From Candidatus Gastranaerophilales bacterium (GTDB taxonomy: Bacteria > Cyanobacteriota > Vampirovibrionia > Gastranaerophilales > Gastranaerophilaceae): 64,000 nucleotides of DNA. The notes beneath the pieces are model-generated. The model made no database searches, was not told the DNA's origin, and saw only the letters and a list, made by a program, of their open reading frames with translations. The DNA is taken from contig CALUPH010000002.1 of NCBI GenBank assembly GCA_944322615.1, positions 124,001 through 188,000 on the forward strand. The letters run 5' to 3'. This document shows, piece by piece, positions 31,797 to 41,557 of the stretch. The position numbers were made by a program, and so were the translations under genes. Numbering within the stretch: position 1 is the first letter of the stretch; each line of letters begins with the position of its first letter.

Positions 31797-32339
31797 ATGA
31801 TTATTGATAATAATTTAATCGCAAACGATTTTGATTTTATGACAGATTTTAACGGTATTGACCGTTTATTCAACAATCCGTTTTACCCTTCAGGTGTATA
31901 TGATAAAGAAAAACCCGAATATACCCATGGACCAGAGTCCAGTGAATTTCCAAATTTAACACTTCCTTGTAAATTATATGATGAATGGGGAAATACTATT
32001 CAAGATGGGTACTATATGGTTGTACTGTCACAAGACATGAAATTTCTTGAACTATATCAAAGCAATAAACTAAAAGCCCGTGTAAGAGTAATAAAATTAG
32101 TAGAAAAAATGTATACTCAAGAAGAATTAAACGAAGAAACAGAAATAATAGGACGATTACGAACAGCACAAGCAAAGCAAAAACTAAAAAAAATAAGAGA
32201 AGCAGAAGAAGAATTGATAGCATTTAAAGAACGTGCTGCTGCAAATTCTTACGCTACGATTGAAGATTCAGGAAAAGGATACTATATTCTAAAATATAAT
32301 TGCAATGGTAAACAAGCAACAGGACTTATCCAAAAATAA
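31797..32339 (+). CDS. Unknown protein with a charged coiled-coil segment
   Basis: 180 residues. AAGGGA 7-12 bases upstream supports the start. The N-terminal third is acidic and aromatic (MIIDNNLIANDFDFM, NPFYPSGVYD). A short predicted beta region (LPCKLYDEWGNTIQDGYYMVVLSQ) is followed by a basic, charged helix (about 105-150) and a C-terminal strand region. No signal peptide, cysteine motif or known domain. It lies 61 bases before the FlhA_C-like gene on the same strand, so the two could be linked; an AT-rich TATAAT-like spacer could also separate them. Confidence 0.7.
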   Translation: MIIDNNLIANDFDFMTDFNGIDRLFNNPFYPSGVYDKEKPEYTHGPESSEFPNLTLPCKLYDEWGNTIQDGYYMVVLSQDMKFLELYQSNKLKARVRVIKLVEKMYTQEELNEETEIIGRLRTAQAKQKLKKIREAEEELIAFKERAAANSYATIEDSGKGYYILKYNCNGKQATGLIQK

Positions 32340-32400
32340 ATTTTAAAATTATAATAAAAATGTTATCATTTAATTAAAACAGATAAAAAAGGATTGATAA

Positions 32401-33867
32401 ATGTACAAACCAACAAGAAATGTATATACAATAAGAACTTCACCATATAACGATAATGAAAAGCTTGAAAATCTTTTGAATGAAATGTCAAAAGATGGTT
32501 GGGATGTATACTCAATCCAGGAAATAGAAAATGATGAAGGTATTTTCTATAATTGTATATTCATAAAAGAAACAGAAAATGAAGACAATTCATTGAATGA
32601 AAATGATGACTTACTAAACTTCAAATCAAGGATTGAAAGAATTATCAATCCTGAACTTGACCCTTATGAACTATGCGTTGATATACAAAAGAAAATAAAA
32701 GAAAAAAGACAAAAAATAGCACAAGTTAAATCATTAATAGATGAAACGTCAGAAGATTCAAGAGCTATTCTAAACGCTAAAATTTCAAAACATATTGATG
32801 AACTTGATGATTTAAAAAAGAAACTTTCGAAAGTAATTAATCCAAACATTATGGAACAAAAATTGGGAGAACAGAAACTTACATTAGCTATATCAGAAGA
32901 ATTAATAGACATTCTTGATAATGATAATGAATATAATATGCTTTCTCAAATTGTTCTTATAAGACAAAACTTAACAGAAACTCTAGGCTATATAATTCCA
33001 AAAATAAAAATAGAAGTAGATGACACTTTAGATGAAAATGAGTTTGCAATAAAAGTAAGGGGCATTCCCGTAATCACATCAAAAGCATATTGTGATTATA
33101 CTATGTTCTATGAAAATGATTTGAAGATAGAAAAATTACCTGATAATTCATTCAAGAGTACAGATACAGTAACCGGTTTAAATACAATATGGATAAAAGA
33201 AGAAAAAGCAAAAGACTTTTGGGCTAAAGGGCTTGACACAACTGATTATATTGCTCATCTAATAGAATATACCGTTACAAAATATATTGATGATATTTTC
33301 GACTACTCAGACATCAACAGATATATTGAAATAGTAGGTAATCAAAACCTTTACCTTATAGAGAATATTATTCCTGATTATATGTCAGTTGCCGAATTAA
33401 AATATATTCTTACAAGCCTTATAAAAGAAAAAGTATCAATAAAAGATATCGTATACATTTTTGAAAAAATAAATGATTTTGCAGATGAAACAAATAAAGA
33501 AGAGCTATTAGAAAGAATAAGAGTATCATTAGCAAGACAAATCAGTTCTTCATTATGTAACGATAAAGATAGAAATATATATGCTTATGAGTTATCTGCA
33601 AACAGCATAAAATCATTTATCGGTGATAAAAATGTAAACGATGAAGTTATTAGAATTGAAAGTACCAAGATAGAAGAAATTATAAAAAATCTAAAAGAAA
33701 AAGTAGAACAATATACTCCTGAGGCAAAAGAAATTATACTAATTGCACCAATGAAAGTCAGACACATTATTTACTTAATACTTTCACAAATAATGCCAAA
33801 CTTAAGAGTTGTAGCAAGAGAAGAAATCTTATTTGAACATCCGCTCAATATAATAAGCAGCATATAA
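32401..33867 (+). CDS. Soluble FlhA/SctV (FHIPEP) C-terminal-domain protein with DUF4177-like N-terminus
   Basis: 488 residues, no transmembrane segment. Residues 5-56 resemble a DUF4177-type small domain (LENLLNEMSKDGWDVYSI). Residues about 90-145 are charged coiled coil. Residues about 159-488 align by eye along the whole cytoplasmic domain of the flagellar export-gate protein FlhA: an LAISEELIDILD start, LRQNLTETLGY-like helix, EFAIKVRGIPV strand, GLNTIWI, then TDYIAHLIEYTVTKYIDDIF, ENIIPDYMSVAELKYILTSL, KEKVSIKDIVYIFEKINDFA, RVSLARQISSS, and a final strand-helix part. In FlhA this domain docks export chaperones and substrates; the membrane half that forms the gate is absent here. No flagellar or type III gene is nearby. 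An adaptor or docking role is inferred. Confidence 0.85.
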   Translation: MYKPTRNVYTIRTSPYNDNEKLENLLNEMSKDGWDVYSIQEIENDEGIFYNCIFIKETENEDNSLNENDDLLNFKSRIERIINPELDPYELCVDIQKKIKEKRQKIAQVKSLIDETSEDSRAILNAKISKHIDELDDLKKKLSKVINPNIMEQKLGEQKLTLAISEELIDILDNDNEYNMLSQIVLIRQNLTETLGYIIPKIKIEVDDTLDENEFAIKVRGIPVITSKAYCDYTMFYENDLKIEKLPDNSFKSTDTVTGLNTIWIKEEKAKDFWAKGLDTTDYIAHLIEYTVTKYIDDIFDYSDINRYIEIVGNQNLYLIENIIPDYMSVAELKYILTSLIKEKVSIKDIVYIFEKINDFADETNKEELLERIRVSLARQISSSLCNDKDRNIYAYELSANSIKSFIGDKNVNDEVIRIESTKIEEIIKNLKEKVEQYTPEAKEIILIAPMKVRHIIYLILSQIMPNLRVVAREEILFEHPLNIISSI

Positions 33868-40891: not shown

Positions 40892-41557
40892 TTATTGTAA
40901 TAGCAAACCGTATTTTCTTGCAATTTTTATTGTTTCATTATCCATTGCAACAGGAATCCCATTCATTTTAATATCACGCATATAAGCATATCTGTGCCTT
41001 CCGTCTCCAAAAGCGATTTCAGGATATTCTCCATAATCATTAATATATACTACAGGAGCATATATATTTTTACCTGTTTTTAAATACTCTTTTAAATTTT
41101 CGGTTCTTTCAGGCTGAGAAATATATCCCTCCTTGCCGACATAAGCAAAGCCATATTTCTCATATGCATTATCAAATTTTGTTGTATCTATTTCAACTAA
41201 TCTATAGCCTCTTAATTTATCCTCTGGTGACAATTCAACCCTTGATTTTATACTTTCAGAGGATTCAAGTAATTCTGAAAATGATTTTCTGGTAAAATTT
41301 ATACCTCTATTAGCAAGCATTGTCTCAATTTCATCATCTGCACCCTTATCTTCACCTATAAAATTTATAGTTGAATTTGCATAAGTATAATTTTCTTCAG
41401 GAATTTCTACTGAAGATGAAATTTTGTCTCCCAAAAAAGAATATCTATCTGATAAATCAATAATTTCATCAACTTTATTCGGATTTTCTTTAGCTTTTAC
41501 TACATATAAACTCTGAAAAGAAGGCTTAAGATTTCTGTTATAGTTATTAATTTGCAT
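40892..41557 (-). CDS. ParB/sulfiredoxin-like protein with the M-x-I-N N-terminal pattern
   Basis: 221 residues. The first 22 residues (MQINNYNRNLKPSFQSLYVV) match the recurring N-terminal motif. The middle is polar. The C-terminal part has APVVYINDYGEYPEIAFGDG followed by RHRYAYMRD and IPVAMD: the DGRHR at 185-189 is like the GxHR phosphate-binding motif of ParB-type and sulfiredoxin folds, which bind or hydrolyse nucleotides. There is no helix-turn-helix and no parA, so it is not a chromosome-partition ParB. Function unknown. An AAAGGAAA site precedes the ATG. Confidence 0.72.
   Translation of the reverse strand: MQINNYNRNLKPSFQSLYVVKAKENPNKVDEIIDLSDRYSFLGDKISSSVEIPEENYTYANSTINFIGEDKGADDEIETMLANRGINFTRKSFSELLESSESIKSRVELSPEDKLRGYRLVEIDTTKFDNAYEKYGFAYVGKEGYISQPERTENLKEYLKTGKNIYAPVVYINDYGEYPEIAFGDGRHRYAYMRDIKMNGIPVAMDNETIKIARKYGLLLQ

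Follow-up and report, generated by a model that had tools for sequence, protein, structure and literature searches.

The cytoplasmic domain of FlhA (FlhA_C) is the cargo-receiving part of the type III export gate, and in some flagellated bacteria the C-terminal domain of FlhB also exists as a stand-alone protein, FlhX. Published genome surveys have repeatedly touched on flagellum-related genes in the Gastranaerophilales and their relatives. For example, the accessible text of Di Rienzi et al. 2013 (PMC3787301) lists 13 such genes common to four Melainabacteria, including two flhA entries, and explains the missing filament genes of MEL.A1 by genome reduction. Similarly, the available sections of Soo et al. 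2014 (PMC4040986) state that most Gastranaerophilales genomes hold a gene subset that would not make a functional flagellum, a statement that also appears in the accessible part of PMC5877343. A search of open-access papers turned up no description of a soluble FlhA paralogue, and the available portions of these surveys mention no membrane-free FlhA.

The locus considered here lies in a window of 64,000 nucleotides, by which we mean the whole stretch of DNA analysed (GCA_944322615.1, contig CALUPH010000002.1, positions 124,001-188,000 of the forward strand), from a Candidatus Gastranaerophilales genome of the class Vampirovibrionia, referred to below as the host. The open reading frame and its main segments are as follows, in window coordinates.

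32401..33867, including the stop codon, + strand: stand-alone FlhA_C protein (P0001), 488 aa, supported by its open frame, FHIPEP match, orthologues and dN/dS
32401..32577, + strand: N-terminal beta-alpha-beta-beta domain, residues 1-59, predicted from AlphaFold models and conservation
32662..32835, + strand: predicted helical hairpin, residues 88-145, from AlphaFold models and a blastp alignment that begins at residue 123
32842..33864, + strand: FlhA_C domain, residues 148-488, from alignment to E. coli FlhA and Foldseek matches to FlhA_C
Within the FlhA_C domain: subdomains D1 (about residues 159-231 and 280-299), D2 (about 232-279), D3 (about 300-378) and D4 (about 379-478)

The subdomain borders were transferred by alignment from those of E. 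coli FlhA. A preliminary description of this DNA had recognised a whole FlhA_C domain and the loss of the membrane half. Indeed, sequence and predicted structure both show the whole FlhA/SctV cytoplasmic domain and no membrane half. Its frame begins with ATG and contains no internal stops. The Pfam family FHIPEP, whose profile has 657 positions, aligned with residues 140-476 over positions 321-652 (E 3.8e-50; 171.5 bits, the curated cut-off being 29.1), and the Pfam search gave no match to positions 1-320, which represent the membrane half. The NCBIfam model TIGR01398 for FlhA likewise matched residues 137-487 only (E 1.7e-44), and the score of 152 bits, far under the full-length equivalog cut-off of 772 bits, is what would be expected of half an FlhA. 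Hydropathy revealed no transmembrane segment, the maximum over 19 residues being 1.45 compared with 3.08 in the full FlhA of the host, which has many hydrophobic segments. The closest PDB sequence match was B. subtilis FlhA_C (3mix, E 3e-24). A single-chain AlphaFold2 model, made with 49 relatives in the alignment (mean pLDDT 81), is predicted to adopt the FlhA_C fold with D1 to D4 all present, and the proposed Foldseek comparison against FlhA_C and SctV_C returned cytoplasmic domains of FlhA or SctV for 50 of the 50 matches listed, the best being 6ch2_C (E 1.9e-22, TM 0.82 to the target).

The front end of the protein differs from that of FlhA. The hairpin is predicted to consist of two helices (residues 88-113 and 118-145), residues 60-87 were mostly of low confidence in the model, and the N-module folded alone gave the same strands as in the whole-protein model. 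Conservation in this part is marked: C92, L26, N27 and Y37 do not vary, C52 and W34 hardly vary, and M29 and F54 are also conserved in the N-terminal domain. The front had earlier been called DUF4177-like and followed by a coiled coil. The different front domain was borne out and the coil corresponds to the predicted hairpin, whereas membership of DUF4177 was rejected, since the match stayed below threshold (E 0.05; 14.2 bits against a gathering score of 25) and the relatives did little better (best E 0.0035; E<=0.1 in 9 of 24 members). Foldseek with the N-module alone yielded nothing at E<=0.001, the weak matches being to dodecin-like and ACT-like folds. When residues 1-145 served as a profile, a single clear copy was obtained per Gastranaerophilales genome, without exception in the orthologue of the stand-alone protein, and the other families of the class gave no match; one additional weak match in the host genome (E 9e-4) covered the coil portion alone.

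A survey of the order, as had been proposed, recovered orthologues with the same architecture in 145 of the 146 Gastranaerophilales genomes that were sampled. Their open frames span approximately 480-530 codons, with front end and FlhA_C both aligned in nearly all, they recur in many independent assemblies, and the named database records for such sequences are placed in Candidatus Gastranaerophilales. Against close relatives the gene has a dN/dS of 0.04-0.07, and strong purifying selection acts on all three segments, with the front end constrained about as much as FlhA_C or more. The protein was present in 50 of 50 genomes with flagellin and in 95 of 96 without, and is thus not tied to the filament.

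Comparison with full-length FlhA proteins points to a particular ancestor. Alongside canonical flagellar FlhA the order encodes a second type, belonging to the export system described below. The stand-alone proteins scored about 115-180 bits against this second type and about 60-90 bits, or no match, against canonical FlhA. The blastp match to the second type starts in the linker just past the membrane half, with which the end of the hairpin, from residue 123, aligns. In a tree of 86 FlhA_C domains the stand-alone proteins formed one clade inside the second-system group, with a support of 100 after two long-branch paralogues were removed, and an AU test rejected their union with canonical FlhA (p 0.0001), so that descent from canonical flagellar FlhA was discarded. 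Among the residues common to the stand-alone and second-system proteins and missing from canonical FlhA are P148 and M151 in the linker, as well as Y197, F354 and D359. On these alignments and trees, the stand-alone protein descends from the second-system type of FlhA, with long branches as a caveat that also makes its exact sister uncertain.

Components of this second, flagellum-like type III export system were sought in the host family by family, and the proposed genome search for FlhB, FliPQR and FliI found all of them, at loci outside the window.

L006 1333-11730: second-system locus in the host
L122 8171-12113: further second-system locus in the host
L112 10604-11677: further second-system locus in the host

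The first run encodes two FlgE/F/G-like rod proteins, FlgB-like and FlgC-like proteins and a transglycosylase, together with FliE, FliF, a FliG-like protein (assigned from its position plus a weak MgtE_N match), FliH, a 700-aa FlhA and FliI. A second run encodes FliO, FliP, FliQ, FliR and a protein with two SpoA domains, and FlhB is found in a third place in the genome. A sigma-factor-like gene follows flhB in the host, as it does in the three further flhB loci that were inspected. The 700-aa FlhA scored 683 bits with the flagellar model and 592 with the injectisome model, below both curated cut-offs. The host genome gave no match to flagellin, yet it encodes this system, a point on which the preliminary description needs amending; the absence of other flagellar genes from the window holds for the 28-41 kb portion examined. 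Across the order the run of fliE, fliF, fliG, fliH and flhA recurs, and in one genome (G011) the second-system run adjoins a canonical fliP-fliR-flhB-flhA run. Flagellin matches occurred in only 50 of 146 Gastranaerophilales genomes and canonical FlhA (E below 1e-240) in 48, all with flagellin; a full second-type FlhA was found in 94 of the 96 genomes without flagellin.

This arrangement can be traced in the earlier literature. In the available part of PMC3787301 the first flhA appears in the order flgG flgG flgC fliF fliH flhA fliI, which matches the host run. In the survey texts accessible to us, the second-system genes were counted as an incomplete flagellum. The second flhA of that list (ACD20_26563.5896.13G0002) is named only flhA, and the same part of the paper mentions neither a lack of the membrane half nor an N-module nor its ancestry. 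It is probably an orthologue of the stand-alone protein, in which case the gene had probably been seen and not recognised for what it is.

We compared positions 456, 459 and 490 (E. coli numbering), which from the FlhA literature we take to form the chaperone-binding dimple, across 42 orthologues, 30 canonical FlhA and 21 second-system FlhA. The corresponding codons of the window are as follows.

33163..33174, + strand: codons 255-258, equivalent to E. coli D456-F459; D255 is kept and T258 replaces the aromatic residue
33256..33258, + strand: codon 286, equivalent to E. coli T490; H here, and R, N, K or E in relatives

Canonical FlhA of the order carries E, F and T at these three positions, and second-system FlhA carries D (one E), Y (one F) and T. 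In the stand-alone family D is kept at 456 in 41 of 42 orthologues, whereas position 459 is T, S or N, being aromatic in none of the 42 as against 30/30 canonical and 21/21 second-system proteins, and T at position 490 was seen in 0/42 compared with 51/51 full FlhA of the order. Furthermore, the GYxLI motif of FlhA is replaced by an invariant S-x-E. By these residue comparisons the core of the fold is kept and the D1/D2 cleft is rewritten. Since every orthologue examined has substitutions at two of the three dimple positions, the protein probably docks something other than the usual chaperone cargo.

The neighbourhood of the gene was compared across 103 loci, a set skewed towards close relatives, among which no conserved operon partner was found. 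A gene of a 4-alpha-glucanotransferase-like family adjoins in 32 of these loci, bamA and skp are near in about 40, and fliPQR lies within approximately 9 kb in only 3; the housekeeping neighbours also include clpP. Immediately upstream in the window are two features.

31797..32339, + strand: open reading frame of 180 aa with no Pfam match, 61 bp before the stand-alone gene
32361..32369, + strand: putative extended -10 element TGTTATCAT, placed 31 bp ahead of the start codon and conserved in near relatives

The family of the 180-aa frame adjoins the gene in 21 of the 103 loci and is therefore probably not part of a conserved unit, and the -10 pattern occurs at chance level in the window, which makes TGTTATCAT a weak promoter candidate.

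Other copies of FlhA_C have also left their membrane half. Some genomes contain extra small FlhA_C-like proteins, including two in the host, in which D2 is missing or no more than a short membrane segment is kept, and a few of the truncated copies carry stops. One such small protein in the host adjoins a MarR-type regulator gene. Proteins of approximately 210-300 aa without D2 and D4 occur in several genera, and two genomes of the host genus encode FlhA_C-like proteins with a short hydrophobic N-terminal region. One genus has a fusion of approximately 590 aa, in which a second-system FliG-like domain (E 2e-18) is joined through a membrane segment to a D2-less FlhA_C; its gene adjoins two response-regulator-like genes. 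In another family of the class (f10) extra FlhA_C-like proteins were also observed, one of 553 aa and some cut by contig ends.

L008 6606-7403 (+), L256 7227-8084, L257 7146-8036, L258 7286-8143 and L259 6567-7424: FlhA_C-like without D2 and D4
L007 7028-8311 (-) and L269 7106-8362 (+): FlhA_C-like with a short hydrophobic N-terminal region
L267 6542-8323 (-) and L268 5874-7649 (+): FliG-like/FlhA_C fusion
L245 5295-6956 (-), L247 151-1113, L248 5804-6727 and L249 5378-6013: FlhA_C-like proteins of family f10

The fusion indicates that freed FlhA_C pieces can stay with the second-system machine. Pieces of second-system FlhA_C have in this way been set free and put to new use repeatedly, in at least one case while staying attached to another component of the system.

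A separate observation concerns a loose N-terminal motif, M-x-I/V followed by S/A-F-x-G within about 45 residues, in many Gastranaerophilales proteins (for example L007 3879-4370, L114 8153-12154 and window 40892-41557 on the - strand). With a regular expression drawn after the examples were seen, it was present in 4.8% of host open reading frames versus 0.45% of internal-Met controls and in 2.7-3.3% versus 0.5-0.6% elsewhere in the order, and it was not enriched in the class's other families. Any role as a signal for targeting or secretion is conjecture.

Taken together, we favour, at a probability of roughly one half, a reading in which the stand-alone protein is an order-specific, membrane-free accessory docking ring of the second system. 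A second-system FlhA_C separated from its membrane half, joined a new N-terminal domain and helical hairpin, and has been retained by practically the entire order, steps that we count as established. The protein would then act in the cytosol as an auxiliary ring that serves the second export system in docking or sorting, with D3 driving assembly, either with itself or with the FlhA ring, with the altered D1/D2 cleft binding a class of cargo or carrier other than the usual flagellar chaperones, and with the N-module perhaps recruiting that cargo or attaching the ring to the export apparatus. In this form, as an accessory to the second type III system, the idea in the preliminary description of a domain turned to another export route is plausible. 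The accessory-ring reading is supported by the second-system ancestry, by a full second system in a host without flagellin, by retention of the protein both with and without flagellin, by the FlhA_C fold, purifying selection and the changed dimple on a kept core, and by the FliG-like fusion. Its main weaknesses are the lack of gene linkage to the second system and a co-occurrence that is saturated within the order and so provides no test of a tie between the two. Also against it are the other orders of the class, which have the second system without the protein, the exceptional genome G130, which has the FlhA and no stand-alone protein, and two genomes with the protein and no detected full FlhA, which perhaps reflect assembly gaps given that FlhB is present. 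A bolder version, to which we would give rather less credence and which we put forward tentatively, is that one type III system for non-flagellar export uses two docking rings throughout this order of animal-gut bacteria, a membrane-anchored FlhA and a soluble FlhA_C paralogue with an N-terminal recruiting module.

The strongest alternative is that the FlhA_C scaffold was taken up for an unrelated cytosolic job and makes no contact with any export system. The housekeeping neighbours without type III linkage, the loss of two dimple residues and the GYxLI motif, an N-module found only in this protein and its retention irrespective of flagellin would all fit such an exaptation, but the whole D1-D4 fold and many FlhA core residues are under strong constraint and the parent system is almost always kept in the order too, and we consider it less likely than not, though a serious rival. 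Less probable still, at long though not negligible odds, is that the soluble FlhA_C limits second-system export as a regulatory decoy, by mixing into, capping or competing with the FlhA ring or by titrating cargo. Its second-system ancestry and conserved core are compatible with this, and a gene away from the type III runs could be transcribed separately; however, the changes in the cleft speak against plain competition with FlhA for its chaperones, and with an ancient divergence and an identity of approximately 30% mixed rings are uncertain. Finally, a split or decaying flhA, which the preliminary description had raised against itself and to which the truncated copies elsewhere, a few with stops, might lend some colour, is rejected as highly improbable because an intact FlhA of 700 aa, complete with a C-domain, is encoded separately in the host, where a genome search found no lone membrane half, and because 145 of 146 genomes, in many independent assemblies, conserve the same front end at a dN/dS of 0.04-0.07.

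A natural, near-universal soluble FlhA_C with a rewritten cargo cleft would separate docking from membrane function, and so lends itself to comparative work on how the gate selects its cargo and passes it on. The rewritten cleft points to cargo other than flagellar subunits. The protein also brings into view a flagellum-like export system found across the order, which occurs together with true flagella in many genomes and persists in others that lack flagellin.

Compared with known systems, the protein shares with flagellar FlhA_C (PF00771) the D1-D4 fold, as seen in the TM of 0.82 to 6ch2_C, and core residues that include R188, G196, P200, W264, E355 and R374. It differs from flagellar FlhA in having no membrane half and an N-module of its own, in the replacement of the F459 and T490 equivalents and of GYxLI, and in a gene that lies outside the flagellar runs. 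The injectisome cytoplasmic domain of SctV/InvA/MxiA has the same fold (4a5p_B, TM 0.85; 2x49, TM 0.74), but SctV is membrane-anchored and gives lower sequence scores with the protein than FlhA does. FlhX is an earlier case of an export-gate protein whose cytoplasmic half has a soluble paralogue, although the gate protein and the fold differ, and we know of no FlhX with an added N-terminal module of this kind. By score, tree, signature residues and linker, the closest relative is the second-system full FlhA of the Gastranaerophilales themselves, which has the membrane half and the dimple aromatic and T and shows a mean column identity of 85%, versus 52% for the stand-alone protein.
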